Origin: Candidatus Thalassarchaeum sp.
GTDB taxonomy: Archaea; Thermoplasmatota; Poseidoniia; Poseidoniales; Thalassarchaeaceae
Direction of reading: 5' to 3'
DNA length: 44,412 nt
NCBI GenBank assembly: GCA_022451235.1
Contig: JAKUOA010000006.1
Span: 1-44,412 of the forward strand
Of the stretch, positions 1,517 to 7,747 are shown piece after piece; position 1 is the first letter of the stretch, and every line of letters starts with the position of its first letter. The notes under the pieces were generated by a model. That model had not been told where the DNA came from and ran no database searches. It saw only the letters and a program-made list of their open reading frames with translations. A program made the position numbers and the translations under genes.

Positions 1517-2452
1517 ATGAGTGAAACAAATGAACCTGAGATTCTCTTTGGAATCTATTGTCCACCTCACCCTCAACCACTTCTTTCTCCTGAAGCAAGT
1601 GAAGGATACAGCAATCTTCGAGCCGCTTACGATGAATGCCGGAAGCGAATTGAAGAAAGCGAGGCAGATATCATAATCGTTTATTCAACCACATGGCCAA
1701 GTATAATTGGGCATCAAATTCAAGCCTTGGAAAAGGCGGTGTGGACTCATGTCGATGACGATTTCCACTATCTTGGTAGTATGCCATATGAATTCCACAT
1801 GGATACTCAATTCGCTCATTCAATGAGGGAGAATTGTGAAAAGAGAGGATTGGAAGCTAGAACGGTCGAGTATGAAGGATTCCCAATTGACACTGGCTCA
1901 GTGGTTGCTTTGCAATTATTGAACCCTGAAAATCGAATTCCAACCTGCATTCTCTCTAGCAACATGTACTCTAATCGTTCTGAGACAATCGTTCTAGGTA
2001 AGGCCGTGAGAGATACACTGGCCCAACAAAACAAGAAGGCGGTAGTCGTAGTAGTCTCAAGTCTCTCTAATCGTATGTTTACAGAACACATAGATCCCAA
2101 AGAGGACAGAATCCACTCTCAGAAAGATGATGATTGGAATCGTAAGATTTTGGAGTTCTTCGATGATGGAAGATTAGAGGATTTGAGTCAATTGAGCCGT
2201 GATATACACGGACAAATTAGAGTTCAGAAAGTAGTCGCATACAAGCCTGCTTGGTGGCTTGCCGCAACCATGGGACAGCACAACAACTACGATGGCGAAG
2301 TACTCGCTTACGAAGCACTGCACGGAAGTGGAGGGGCAGTCATTACATTGACCCCATCGACAGGTTCGGTCGGTGACAAGGAGTTCGACGAGGATGATGT
2401 TGAATTCTACAGAGGAGATCGAAATGTCCTCGATAAGGGGATGCTAGAATGA
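1517..2452 (+). CDS. Degenerate LigB-family subunit (2-aminophenol 1,6-dioxygenase alpha-like)
   Basis: The 311-residue product aligns end to end with the preceding dioxygenase: CPPHPQP matches APHPPH, the YSTTW stretch matches FTPHW, and the C-terminal AWWLAATMG matches the acidic-ligand region. The second iron-binding His is replaced (TTW for TPHW) and the catalytic Glu is missing, so this chain should not bind iron. In bacterial 2-aminophenol dioxygenase the alpha subunit is likewise an inactive paralogue that completes the heterotetramer; the same role is inferred here. The start was set at the second of two tandem ATGs because GAGGTG at 1506-1511 then has a 5-base spacing. The stop overlaps the next start by 4 bases (ATGA type), indicating translational coupling. 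Confidence 0.75.
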   Translation: MSETNEPEILFGIYCPPHPQPLLSPEASEGYSNLRAAYDECRKRIEESEADIIIVYSTTWPSIIGHQIQALEKAVWTHVDDDFHYLGSMPYEFHMDTQFAHSMRENCEKRGLEARTVEYEGFPIDTGSVVALQLLNPENRIPTCILSSNMYSNRSETIVLGKAVRDTLAQQNKKAVVVVVSSLSNRMFTEHIDPKEDRIHSQKDDDWNRKILEFFDDGRLEDLSQLSRDIHGQIRVQKVVAYKPAWWLAATMGQHNNYDGEVLAYEALHGSGGAVITLTPSTGSVGDKEFDEDDVEFYRGDRNVLDKGMLE

Positions 2453-3114
2453 CCTCGGAAGAGCCAAGTCCGGAAGAAGAGGAAGAAGTGTCTTTCTTAC
2501 ATAGACTTGAGATGATTAAAGATCTAATCGAGGCTCCTGATGAGGTAATTGAGGCTCTGTACGATGGATATGGGAAATCAATGTTGTACACAGCTGGTGG
2601 TGCAGCCGGGGCTGCTGCTGGTGTTGCAGTAGGTGGACCTGTTGGTGGCATAGTTGGCGGAGTCGTTGGAAAGAAAACTGCAGGCAAGTTCACCAGCGAT
2701 GACGGACCAAAATATTCTGAAAATGCCCCTACTGCTGTTGGAGCCTATCCCCACGCTTATCGAGTTGGAAACTTACTTTTTGTCAGTGGAATTGGGCCTC
2801 GTCAGCCAGAAACCAATGAGATTCCAGGCGGTCCTATCCGTGACGCTGATGGTAATCCTCTAGATTACGACATTCGTGCTCAAACAAGGGCCGTAATAGA
2901 GAACATCAAGACAATCTTGGAGGATGCCGGCTCATCACTAGACAAAGTCGTAGACTGCCTCTCTTTCCTAGTAGATATGGATCGAGACTTCGCCGGCTAC
3001 AATGAAGTATACGCCGAGTACTTTTCTGAGATTCTCTGTGCCCGTACCACAGTCGCCGTACGAGCACTTCCTACCCCGATTGCGGTTGAATTGAAAGTAA
3101 TCGCTAAGGTTTAG
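2449..3114 (+). CDS. RidA/YjgF-family 2-aminomuconate deaminase homologue with an N-terminal glycine-zipper segment
   Basis: Residues about 88-221 form a RidA-like domain that closely resembles 2-aminomuconate deaminase (AmnD/NbaF), including GAYPH, FVSGIGPRQP, DIRAQTRAVIENI and the RTTVAV stretch with the conserved substrate-binding Arg. Deaminase chemistry would release ammonia from 2-aminomuconate, the product after ring opening and semialdehyde oxidation. Ahead of it lie an acidic tail (residues 1-13), a short helix, and a Gly/Ala zipper at residues 49-75 that resembles a membrane-inserting glycine zipper. RidA proteins are normally about 130-140 residues and lack this. The start overlaps the stop of the LigB partner. 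No semialdehyde dehydrogenase follows, so the pathway is incomplete here. Confidence 0.75.
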   Translation: MTSEEPSPEEEEEVSFLHRLEMIKDLIEAPDEVIEALYDGYGKSMLYTAGGAAGAAAGVAVGGPVGGIVGGVVGKKTAGKFTSDDGPKYSENAPTAVGAYPHAYRVGNLLFVSGIGPRQPETNEIPGGPIRDADGNPLDYDIRAQTRAVIENIKTILEDAGSSLDKVVDCLSFLVDMDRDFAGYNEVYAEYFSEILCARTTVAVRALPTPIAVELKVIAKV

Positions 3115-3536: not shown

Positions 3537-4547
3537 TTACTCCAAACTTGATGATTCACAAGTTGGTGGAGCAATTACTGGGTTACAAGCAATGGGACCG
3601 TTGGGGACTTGCACCCAATATTCGATTCCATCAACTTTAGCCGGATAATCAGTTGAGATTGAATGTGCGCCGACTGCAAAGGCGGCATCTCGACGAGCAG
3701 TGTCGTTATTGTCGGCCTCGCCGTCTTCCGCATTGTCGGCTCGACTCCTAACAATATAGCCCTCTTCAACAAGTCGAGTAATCTCCGATCCCATTCCAAT
3801 GGGGTCGGTCTCGGAATAGAATGCCGCTGTGTCACTTGCCTCATCATTCATAGTAAACATTAGCGAACCATTCAATCCAGGATATGTGTCGACATATGCT
3901 TCACGTACTTCATTTTCAGCTAGTAGGATGAACATAGCCTTCCCTCGAGAGTCATCTAGTAATGGCCAACCACTTGTGGTGACCGCTTCTCTAAGAGTGG
4001 CCGCATCTCCTCTGACATCATCAGGAGTGATAGTCTTATCACGAGGCCACCATTCACCGATTTCAGTTTCGATTTTTTCCAGCATATCTTGTAATTCAAG
4101 GACTACTGTATCATCGGTGCTTGATCGAACCCATTCTTTTGGTTCTACCCAAATCATTAGTGGAACGTGGTTTGGATTCTCGTTTGACCAAGTAAGAAGT
4201 GTGTTCAGACAATCTTCGAAGGTCGCGCAATTACTTCTGAAGTCATATTGATTGTGATAGACGTACAATTGCCCGCGAGGATCCCACCAGACATCCAATT
4301 CAAACTGTCTAACTCCGAAATCTTCGGCTTGAACATCCAACGGCTCGTGTGTGTAATCATAGGCCCTTATCGTCGGTCCAAACGGCTCGATATGGTAGGA
4401 ATTGTGAGTGCCTAGAACTTGGATATGATTGATTCTAAGTGGCTCCGGTTCATTGAATACACCATCACCGGAGCGAAGAAAATCCAAGCAACCCGCAAGC
4501 GGAGACGCTAGCAAGAGGCAACACAGAGCGAGTGCGGTAGTCCTCAT
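3537..4547 (-). CDS. Secreted lipoprotein, calcium-dependent phosphoinositide phospholipase C-like
   Basis: The product has a signal peptide ending in the lipobox LAGC (Cys20 from the ATG at 4547; a TTG two codons earlier is also possible), so it should be a lipid-anchored extracytoplasmic protein. The mature part begins with a VLGTHNSYH motif and an FELDVWWD segment, the two catalytic hallmarks of PI-PLC-like TIM-barrel phosphodiesterases. Near the C-terminus HSISTDYPAK matches the closing barrel strand. At 336 residues it fits the family. The natural substrate, possibly dissolved phospholipids or phosphoesters, is inferred. No partner gene is in the same transcript. Confidence 0.75.
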   Translation of the reverse strand: MRTTALALCCLLLASPLAGCLDFLRSGDGVFNEPEPLRINHIQVLGTHNSYHIEPFGPTIRAYDYTHEPLDVQAEDFGVRQFELDVWWDPRGQLYVYHNQYDFRSNCATFEDCLNTLLTWSNENPNHVPLMIWVEPKEWVRSSTDDTVVLELQDMLEKIETEIGEWWPRDKTITPDDVRGDAATLREAVTTSGWPLLDDSRGKAMFILLAENEVREAYVDTYPGLNGSLMFTMNDEASDTAAFYSETDPIGMGSEITRLVEEGYIVRSRADNAEDGEADNNDTARRDAAFAVGAHSISTDYPAKVDGIEYWVQVPNGPIACNPVIAPPTCESSSLE

Positions 4548-4592
4548 CTTCAACCCATGAGTAGGGCTTCAGTGGATGAAAGATTCGCTTAT

Positions 4593-5045
4593 TCAGCAAC
4601 AGCCACAGCTATCGTCACAGCGAACTTCGACAACTTCTACACTGAACTTGAGAGTCTTTCCAGCCATTTGATGATTAAAATCTACAGTGACAACGTCATC
4701 TGAAATTTCTGTAACTGTAAAGGGTAAGGGTCCTTGGGGCGTTTGAGCAGCCATCATTACTCCTATCTCGAGAGGCATTTCAGACGGGAATTGATCACGC
4801 GGAACCTGCTGAATTGCATCGTCAGAGCGCTCTCCGTAAGCTCGGTCAGGGGTTAGTGTGAATTCTCTCTTTTCACCAACTGCTGCTCCCATCATTTCTT
4901 GTTCGAATCCTGGAATCATTTGCTGCTTTCCAACTTGGTATGCTAGGGGGTCCTTCCCTTCGCTGCTGTCGAACACCTCACCGTCAGGAAAACTTCCTGT
5001 ATAGTGCACTACTGCTATGGTTCCATTCTCAATTGCCTGCGACAT
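4593..5045 (-). CDS. SlyD-like FKBP-type peptidyl-prolyl cis-trans isomerase
   Basis: This 150-residue protein starts with the FKBP core (VVHYTGSFPDGEVFDSS, then YQVGKQQMIPGFEQEMMG). An insert-in-flap domain follows around residues 75-120, and the fold closes with VDFNHQMAGKTLKFSVEV. That arrangement is typical of SlyD-type folding helpers, which combine prolyl isomerase and chaperone activity in the cytoplasm. The C-terminus is Cys-rich (RCDDSCGCC), consistent with metal binding as in SlyD tails, though cysteine replaces most histidine. It is divergent from the APC permease; an A/T-rich region at 5085-5112 probably contains its promoter. Confidence 0.88.
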   Translation of the reverse strand: MSQAIENGTIAVVHYTGSFPDGEVFDSSEGKDPLAYQVGKQQMIPGFEQEMMGAAVGEKREFTLTPDRAYGERSDDAIQQVPRDQFPSEMPLEIGVMMAAQTPQGPLPFTVTEISDDVVTVDFNHQMAGKTLKFSVEVVEVRCDDSCGCC

Positions 5046-5162: not shown

Positions 5163-6839
5163 GTGAAAGTCAAGGGCCCGGATGACCTAGCCGGAATCGT
5201 CCTCAAGTCTGATTCTGAAATGGATGATGCTCTTGAGCGGAAACTTGGGCTAGGCGCTGTTGTAATTATTTCACTCTCAGCTATGCTCGGCTCGGGTCTC
5301 TTTGTTCTACCAGCATTAGCGATGTTAGAGATGGGTGGCGGTACCAATCCAGTTGGCGGGGTCTGGCTTGCCTACCTCTTAGCCGCAATAATTGTCTTGC
5401 CCGCAGCGGTTTCCAAATCTGAGTTGGCAACGGCAATGCCAACTTCTGGAGGCTCATACGTATACGTCCAGAAGACGTTTGGCCCGATGTTTGGTACAAT
5501 TTCGGGTCTTGGATTATGGGCGAATTTCATGCTTAAATCTGCATTTGCACTTATCGGTTTCAAAGCTTATCTTTGGGTAATCGAAGAAATTCTGGGAATC
5601 AAAATTAATATCGAAATCGCTGCATTAGTTCTATTGGCTATAATCGTTGGAATTAACATTCTTGGTGTTAAGCGTATCAAAAAGGTGCAGACGCCAATAG
5701 TTTTGATTTCCGTCAGCTATCTGCTAGCATTGTGTGCCTACGCCTTGGTAACTGTAGAGATGAACTGGGACAATGTGTTTTCCAGAGACGCCTTCGGTGC
5801 TGATTGGGAAGCTGTGGCCCGAACTTCGGCATTCGTGTTCGTTTCTTATGCTGGGGTCACAAAAATAGCAGCAGTTGGTGGTGAAATCAAAGACCCTAGC
5901 AAAAACATTCCAAATGGAATCCTTCTGTCTTTGCTAGTAAGTACTCTTCTCTACGTAATTGTGACCTTGGTTATGGCTGCATCACTCGACCCCACTCTCT
6001 TCATGGACTCTGATAATGCAGGGTACGCTAGAGAGGATCCAGTCTACGTATTTGCAGAAGATATTGGTGGAAAAGAAATCGGTATCATCGCTGCTTTACT
6101 TTCAGTATTGACGATGACTTCCATGTCGCTAGCCGGAATAATGGCATCATCTCGGTTCCCATATGCAATGGCCGCAGATAAGCTTCTTCCCTCCTTCTTA
6201 GAAAAGGTTCACAAAGAGTATCAAACCCCTTATTGGGCTATCATTGTGACTGGATTATCTATGGCTGCAGCGATAACATTCCTTCCAGTAAAAGACGTGG
6301 CTAAACTTGCTTCAGGCTTCAAAATCATGATTTTCATAGTCATTAACGCCTGTGTGATTGTTCTTCGAACCGCATCGCGCTCTCACACATGGTATGCGCC
6401 TGAATGGAAATCTCCGATGTATCCATTCTTCCAAATGCTAGGAATCATTGGTGGATTTGTTCTACTATTTTTGATGGGTGAAAAGGCACTAATTGGAGGC
6501 GGCGCTGCAATTATATTGGGTCTAATTATTTGGAAAGGCTACGGAGAAAAACACGTCGATCTTGAGATTACACCCTGGCAAACTTTTGGTTTACAATATA
6601 CTGATCCAGAAGAAGTAGAAACACGTCGAAGGCTAACAGCATTCTATGCTGCTGATATTGACGGAAATGGGGAACTTAATGTCGAGCAATATCTTTCCGC
6701 CATGGATGCATTGGGGTATACCCCCGATGCAGAGCGTGAATTGAGGACAGTATTCGATGAGGCAGATACCGACGGAAATGGAATTATCGATATTAATGAG
6801 TTCCTTGTAAGCGTTGCAAAGCATGAATCAAATGATTAA
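5163..6839 (+). CDS. APC-superfamily amino acid permease with C-terminal EF-hand pair
   Basis: Residues about 25-460 form a 12-helix amino acid permease of the APC superfamily, with the glycine-rich first helix (SAMLGSGLFVLP), the SGGSYVYV helix-3 motif and FAxVSYAG-like helix 6. After the last helix comes a cytoplasmic tail with two EF-hand loops: DIDGNGELNVEQ (498-509, Gln rather than Glu at position 12) and DTDGNGIIDINE (535-546, canonical), spaced 37 residues as in a paired EF-hand. This suggests calcium-responsive transport (inference). The start is uncertain: the GTG at 5163 sits only one base after GAAGGAG, and an in-frame ATG at 5220 begins just before the first helix. Confidence 0.85.
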   Translation: MKVKGPDDLAGIVLKSDSEMDDALERKLGLGAVVIISLSAMLGSGLFVLPALAMLEMGGGTNPVGGVWLAYLLAAIIVLPAAVSKSELATAMPTSGGSYVYVQKTFGPMFGTISGLGLWANFMLKSAFALIGFKAYLWVIEEILGIKINIEIAALVLLAIIVGINILGVKRIKKVQTPIVLISVSYLLALCAYALVTVEMNWDNVFSRDAFGADWEAVARTSAFVFVSYAGVTKIAAVGGEIKDPSKNIPNGILLSLLVSTLLYVIVTLVMAASLDPTLFMDSDNAGYAREDPVYVFAEDIGGKEIGIIAALLSVLTMTSMSLAGIMASSRFPYAMAADKLLPSFLEKVHKEYQTPYWAIIVTGLSMAAAITFLPVKDVAKLASGFKIMIFIVINACVIVLRTASRSHTWYAPEWKSPMYPFFQMLGIIGGFVLLFLMGEKALIGGGAAIILGLIIWKGYGEKHVDLEITPWQTFGLQYTDPEEVETRRRLTAFYAADIDGNGELNVEQYLSAMDALGYTPDAERELRTVFDEADTDGNGIIDINEFLVSVAKHESND

Positions 6840-6931
6840 GAAAGTTCGATTAAATCGATTTCGAAGTCGAAATACATCGTCGGTTGATTGAAGGCCACAA
6901 CCACGCTCGCAAGTTCCCAAGTGGTGAGCAG

Positions 6932-7747
6932 ATGGCAATCTCCAGTCGCGCCAAGAAGGTCACGACACACACCCTGCAGGCGATGAAGCAAGCCGGTGAG
7001 AAAATCACTATGCTGACATCATACGATTACTCCTTAGCAAGGTTAGTCGATGCAGCCGGAATTGATGTGATTCTGGTTGGAGACTCTGCTTCTAACGTAA
7101 TGGCTGGTAACGAGACTACCGTTCCGATTACTCTCGAACACATGATCTACCACGCTCAGTGTGTAGTCAACGGTGTTGACCGTGCTTTGGTCGTAGTCGA
7201 CATGCCATTCGGCAGTTACCAAGGTGATTCCAAGACCGCACTTGACTCTGCAATTCGCATAATGAAGGAATCTGGAGGTCACGCGGTCAAACTAGAGGGT
7301 GGAGAAGAGGTCGCTGAGTCAATTCAGAGAATTGTCAGCGCAGGTATCCCCGTACAGGGTCACCTTGGCCTGACACCCCAATCAATCTACAAGTTTGGAA
7401 CATACACCGTTCGCGCAAAAGAAGAAGCTGAGGCGGCTCAACTGCTGAAGGATGCAAAGGCAATTGAAGCGGCGGGGTGCTTTTCCGTAGTTTTTGAGAA
7501 GATTCCAGCCGACTTAGCCGCTAAGATCAGTGCCGAATTATCGATTCCAACGATTGGAATAGGAGCTGGCCCTGATTGTGATGGGCAGGTCTTGGTTCTA
7601 CACGACATGCTCGGAATCACCAAGGATTTTAGTCCAAGATTCCTAAGGCGTTATGCAGACTTGGGCGAGTCTATCGATGGAGCAGTGAAACAATACATCA
7701 CAGATGTCCAAAGTGGAGAATTCCCCAATGCTGACGAGTCCTATTGA
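6932..7747 (+). CDS. panB: 3-methyl-2-oxobutanoate hydroxymethyltransferase
   Basis: PanB transfers a hydroxymethyl group from methylene-tetrahydrofolate to 2-oxoisovalerate, giving ketopantoate for coenzyme A. The 271-residue protein shows the family motifs in order: [27 protein letters not shown] with metal-binding Asp, [14 protein letters not shown] with the catalytic Glu region, [14 protein letters not shown] and TIGIGAG. The start at 6932 is supported by GGTGAG at 6923-6928 and by family length; the frame stays open for 16 more codons upstream. Its one-carbon donor links it functionally to the formate-tetrahydrofolate ligase at 24.6 kb. It lies 63 bases ahead of rfcS in the same direction. 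Confidence 0.93.

Follow-up and report, generated by a model that had tools for sequence, protein, structure and literature searches.

The window analysed here is a stretch of 44,412 nucleotides from Candidatus Thalassarchaeum sp. (family Thalassarchaeaceae, order Poseidoniales; GenBank assembly GCA_022451235.1, contig JAKUOA010000006.1). It carries a gene predicted to encode an APC amino-acid permease that continues, past its last transmembrane helix, into a pair of EF-hands. The open reading frame starts with GTG at 5163, ends with a stop codon at 6837-6839 and encodes 558 residues with no internal stops; both the start and the tail are kept in genomes of the same genus. The gene, its parts and its immediate neighbours are as follows:

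3537-4553, reverse strand: lipoprotein-like member of the Ca2+-dependent phosphoinositide phospholipase C family (PF16670, 3.8e-74)
4593..5045, reverse strand: FKBP-type prolyl isomerase, conserved upstream neighbour (PF00254; synteny)
5163..6839, forward strand: EF-tailed APC amino-acid permease (unbroken frame; Pfam and NCBIfam; start kept in relatives)
5232..6554, forward strand: APC transport core, residues 24-464, 12 transmembrane (TM) helices (PF13520, PF00324, GkApcT match, AlphaFold helices)
6549..6590, forward strand: breakpoint region of the core swaps in the relatives L033 and L038, residues 463-476 (site-pattern change points; nucleotide alignment)
6570..6605, forward strand: conserved linker T470-P471-W472 with a short predicted helix, joining TM12 to EF1 (alignment, AlphaFold)
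6654..6689, forward strand: predicted calcium loop EF1, residues 498-509, DIDGNGELNVEQ, with Q at position 12
6765..6800, forward strand: predicted calcium loop EF2, residues 535-546, DTDGNGIIDINE
6884..7747, forward strand: panB, ketopantoate hydroxymethyltransferase, conserved downstream neighbour (PF02548, 1.4e-116; synteny)

Further 5' on the forward strand, positions 602-2452 encode a tandem LigB-type dioxygenase-like pair that is conserved 5' of the permease locus, and positions 2449-3114 encode a RidA/L-PSP protein with an N-terminal extension containing a glycine-zipper-like stretch (AGGAAGAAAGVAVGGPVGGIVGGVVG), which is unusual for a soluble RidA. The PF16670 gene is the second one 5' of the permease and is kept in part of the syntenic loci. 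The conserved neighbours (LigB pair, RidA, phospholipase C lipoprotein, FKBP, panB and rfcS) point to no substrate.

Sequence and predicted fold both place the protein among the secondary amino-acid transporters of the APC (LeuT-fold) superfamily. Pfam scans detect PF13520 on residues 28-440 (7.7e-35, 121 bits against a cut-off of 27) and PF00324 on residues 33-435 (1.1e-36, 127 bits against 24.6), while the named NCBIfam subfamilies, including TIGR00909 and BcaP, all fall below their cut-offs (best TIGR00909, 204.7 bits against 556.8). An AlphaFold model built on a 43-row alignment (mean pLDDT 81.9) contains 12 transmembrane helices, a helix at residues 471-480 and the EF pair, whose two loops are joined by a short beta pairing; it is uninformative on contacts between tail and core. 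The core has the 12-helix LeuT fold with a broken TM1 and a GSG(I/L)F motif, and a Foldseek search with the full model recovers GkApcT, BasC and AdiC. GkApcT (SLC7/CAT-like; PDB 5oqt, 6f34) is the best fold match as well as the nearest solved structure to the core by sequence (E 9e-30), sharing the APC/LeuT fold over residues 13-468 and GSG(L/I)F in TM1. However, GkApcT has no EF tail, and its TM5 lysine K191 corresponds to S183 in the window; this position is S, T, A, M or L in all 78 family rows. In GkApcT, K191 is important for activity, though a K191N variant keeps some proton-driven transport (PMC5803215). With this lysine missing, ion coupling in the family may differ from that of GkApcT and could involve H+, Na+ or exchange. 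An invariant lysine in TM6, K234, is a feature of the EF-tailed family itself.

The claim that loops 498-509 and 535-546, whose starts are 37 residues apart, form a genuine EF-hand pair is borne out by both sequence and fold. Each loop has ligands at positions 1, 3, 5, 9 and 12, Gly at position 6 and paired helices. Within the full protein, PF13499 matches residues 492-548 with a score of 30.7 bits (cut-off 30), single EF models scoring higher; when the tail is run alone, PF00036 (8.6e-12, 44 bits) and PF13499 (9.3e-9) both exceed their Pfam cut-offs. Residues 492-554 resemble calmodulin N-lobes (E about 4e-11), and Foldseek matches the tail model, a modest one with a pLDDT of 74, to the calmodulin N-domain and centrin at TM scores of about 0.6-0.65. 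Other EF-hand proteins are encoded in the same genome: a 591-residue protein that bears an EF-hand pair at its N-terminus and lacks an evident signal peptide (L003, C31:22915), and an apparently secreted, very acidic protein with a PGF-CTERM-like end (L002, C1:69683). The tail model also matches reading frames of 485-634 residues in other Poseidoniales, possibly relatives of L003 forming a second calcium-binding family.

The original prediction presumed that the tail follows the last APC helix into the cytoplasm, and a cytosolic location is supported by several lines of evidence. The 12 TM helices and a positive-inside count, with K+R in the inner loops and acidic outer loops, give an N-in/C-in arrangement. 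Two EF-less Planctomycetota permeases with the closest cores were scanned, one carrying PTS-EIIA plus Usp and the other PTS-EIIA at the same position. These proteins, the nearest EF-less bacterial cores in the Planctomycetota sample, resemble the window in having the added domain directly after TM12, but EIIA (in some cases with Usp) replaces the EF-hands and the TPW linker is lacking. PTS-EIIA and Usp are cytosolic domains, and their presence in the same place indicates that the tail occupies a cytosolic regulatory slot. An inverted topology, in which an extracellular tail is always saturated by calcium and merely binds the cell surface, would suit the acidity of the tail and the roughly 10 mM Ca2+ of seawater, at which any EF-hand is saturated. 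It is nevertheless very improbable, as it conflicts with the helix count, the charge distribution, the EIIA/Usp domains of the homologues and the homology to GkApcT, whose N-terminus is cytosolic. The cytoplasmic position of the GkApcT N-terminal helix (PMC5803215) agrees with the topology count.

The same domain pair was looked for in other genomes, as the original prediction had proposed, and it recurs throughout the order. A tail-alignment search of 194 genomes across the phylum matched 41, every one within Poseidoniales (Marine Group II); the tail was absent from the other Thermoplasmatota sampled, among them the sister family within the class (five genomes), and a search of a plasmid collection with the tail yielded zero matches. 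Close homologues occur in 84 of 97 related genomes, nearly all of them tailed. The window protein is 96% identical to a MED-G37 protein and groups with Thalassarchaeaceae, the other family of the order in this comparison being Poseidoniaceae. The EF-tailed permease thus characterizes the whole order Poseidoniales. The fusion is present in dozens of independent genomes with the same synteny, which refutes the suspicion, raised by a draft assembly in 31 contigs, that it stems from faulty assembly or annotation or is confined to a single genome; the probability of either is negligible. Within the window's own assembly, the gene is the sole AA_permease_2 gene found, though a further one could be missing given that the assembly is 88% complete.

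The two EF-hands have fared differently across the family. A loop was counted as canonical if it has D at position 1, D/N/S at 3 and 5, G at 6 and E/Q at 12. EF2 is canonical in 66 of 67 complete tails, its ligands being held while the remainder of the tail drifts. EF1 is canonical in just 9 of 69, namely in the window's clade, L033 and L013; the other EF1 loops are DxGGKNHLTLxEF-like or lack the first Asp, though their helix and hydrophobic positions are still conserved. EF2 is therefore the probable calcium site, with EF1 a mostly non-binding partner. The Gln that ends the first loop is real and common to the window's clade. A difference in affinity between two sites, which the original prediction drew from it, may apply to this clade, in which both loops may bind, but does not extend to the family at large. 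The two-site form is the exception, and two canonical sites with Q12 in EF1 are best read from the alignment as a local specialization. Linker residues are also strongly conserved (P471 in 69 of 69 tails, T470 in 64 of 69). Values of pN/pS for the tail are 0.05-0.16 in most close pairs, with two higher values arising from very few changes, indicating that the tail is under purifying selection.

Relatives lacking the tail, which the original prediction had named as evidence against it, do exist, yet they are nested within the tailed clade as secondary losses. In a tree rooted on planctomycete permeases, EF-tailed and tail-less proteins form one clade (support 100/100) with the tail-less proteins inside it, and in trees of the core alone, with tail columns excluded, the tail-less proteins require six changes. 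These topologies indicate a single gain followed by several losses, mainly in Poseidoniaceae, rather than an ancestral tail-less state. EF remnants were not found in any frame of the DNA 3' of tail-less genes, which rules out recent frameshifts and points to deletions or truncations; in four tail-less proteins (L066, L071, L074 and L083), a TP stub of the linker remains. That such versions occur naturally suggests the core can dispense with the tail. Separately, in another genome a further EF-tail remnant containing an in-frame TGA (G083, C12:42373-42528) lies just 3' of the EF-tailed permease gene, suggesting tail duplication.

The tail might instead be a constitutive structural or trafficking module, in which a permanently Ca2+- or Mg2+-loaded EF2 steadies the C-terminus or a dimer and senses nothing. 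Single-site EF pairs can be structural, and the EF1 pattern, degenerate in most members yet conserved at hydrophobic positions, is what such a module would show; sensing and structure would moreover conserve identical residues. Repeated loss of the tail with the core gene kept, and the signalling-type EIIA/Usp domains in the slot of the sister architecture, count against this explanation, though both are also compatible with a structural role. Overall, we consider it unlikely.

Tail and core also appear to have separable histories. The protein L033, whose locus is the same as L112 of Ca. Thalassarchaeum ALOHA_A2.5_54, is 52% identical to the window protein in the core and 84% in the tail. Its identities to L038 are reversed (93% core, 52% tail), and L038 in turn is 75% identical to L011 in the tail but 53% in the core. 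A site-pattern test places change points at residues 473-476 (p 4e-29) and 463-476 (p 4e-21 and 2e-21). Genes flanking L033/L112 keep the gene order of the window and match it at 79-84% nucleotide identity; on the 3' side the nucleotide alignment picks up again at window position 6567, directly past TM12. Together, the split in identity, the breakpoints after TM12 and the collinear flanks indicate that the core was swapped in place while the native tail was kept. Such exchange for a 52%-identical core type apparently occurred at least twice. Separate inheritance of tail and core would also suit a docking platform, in which the Ca2+-bound tail recruits a partner, such as one of the genome's further EF-hand proteins or a secretion protein, and the permease serves as receptor or scaffold; helical targets are commonly bound by EF-hand pairs. 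However, there are no conserved partner candidates beyond the housekeeping neighbours FKBP, panB and rfcS, and the TM1 transport motif is intact, making this role improbable.

A scan of GTDB genomes revealed an EF-tailed homologue outside the archaea, with 48% identity, in Planctomycetaceae bacterium SI074_bin7. Its contig carries planctomycete-type genes, including a large cytochrome-like protein (presumably of PSCyt type), a 3-keto-disaccharide hydrolase and a dioxygenase. In a second genome (G255), a comparable permease shares both the linker insertion and the divergently placed oxidoreductase, on a contig that ends inside EF1. The EF-tailed form is restricted to these two of 99 relatives. 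Both copies fall inside the Poseidoniaceae side of the tree, so the genes were likely acquired by transfer from archaea to Planctomycetota. Contamination was ruled out as their source by the planctomycete-type neighbours and by the matching oxidoreductase and linker insertion in the second genome. In SI074_bin7, threonine dehydrogenase and glycine C-acetyltransferase genes (tdh-kbl) lie directly upstream of the permease on the same strand (L162 572-2804), a hint that threonine or glycine may be the substrate of this particular homologue.

On balance, the protein is probably an importer of amino acids whose activity is adjusted by cytosolic Ca2+ acting at EF2, with the tail as a built-in calcium sensor; calcium binding, its coupling to transport, the direction of coupling and the substrate are what we infer. 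Cytosolic Ca2+ would load EF2, with EF1 mostly a structural partner. Loading would alter how the two EF-hands pack against the TPW linker and the cytosolic face, and hence the rate of transport, the tail being regulatory and outside the transport path. Autoinhibition by the apo-tail, relieved by Ca2+, is slightly preferred to calcium shut-off and fits the existence of natural variants that do without the tail. Support for the sensor comes from the EF pair scoring above cut-offs, its calmodulin-like matches, the conserved EF2, purifying selection, order-wide presence, retention of the tail across core exchange, the tail-less versions, the EIIA/Usp slot and the N-in/C-in topology. In addition, this genome carries two genes for CaCA-family exchangers, which make active calcium extrusion plausible, and mitochondrial carriers provide a precedent. 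Against it, most members retain just one canonical EF loop, a site that could hold Mg2+ or be structural; the tail has been lost at several places in Poseidoniaceae, where regulation is evidently sometimes unneeded; and the TPW linker helix, tested by hydrophobic moment as a possible switch helix, shows no significant amphipathicity (mean z 0.56). We put forward more tentatively, as a possibility somewhat short of even, that cytosolic calcium, acting on a built-in sensor, gates the sole APC importer of Poseidoniales; this sensor would sit in an interchangeable slot and have been kept through core swaps.

The uncultured Poseidoniales, heterotrophs that abound in the ocean worldwide, are believed to feed on peptides and amino acids, and a calcium switch on uptake would therefore matter to their physiology. 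To our knowledge, archaeal calcium signalling is hardly documented. An order-wide fusion to what is possibly the only APC permease of the cell offers a concrete, testable calcium effector, amino-acid uptake, and if true would represent a prokaryotic calcium-signalling output separate from eukaryotic calmodulin systems. Ready natural comparisons come from the tail-less versions, from cores exchanged beneath a constant tail and from the bacterial recipient. No published description of an EF-tailed APC permease was found in the literature searched, the closest statement being that calcium-binding domains are among the Poseidoniales-specific protein modules (PMC9258230). Both parts belong to known families; their combination, its order-wide conservation and its modular exchange appear undescribed. 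Similar fusions may have arisen independently in phyla beyond those sampled.

Among known systems, the EF pair shares its fold and loop signature with the calmodulin N-lobe and centrin, but differs in being fused to a transporter and in having an EF1 that is usually degenerate in the family. The nearest functional precedents are the EF-hand-regulated mitochondrial carriers (PMC6283063, PMC4250520), namely the ATP-Mg/Pi carrier (SCaMC) and the aspartate/glutamate carrier (aralar/citrin), in which an EF-hand regulatory domain is likewise fused to a solute carrier. In the ATP-Mg/Pi carrier, an amphipathic helix lies between the domains (PMC6283063). Unlike the window protein, these carriers are eukaryotic, have the SLC25 fold and bear an N-terminal EF domain with four to eight EF-hands; a Pfam scan of the full window protein at E up to 1 detected APC and EF-hand families only, with no SLC25 domain. 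The likeness is thus one of convergence rather than kinship.
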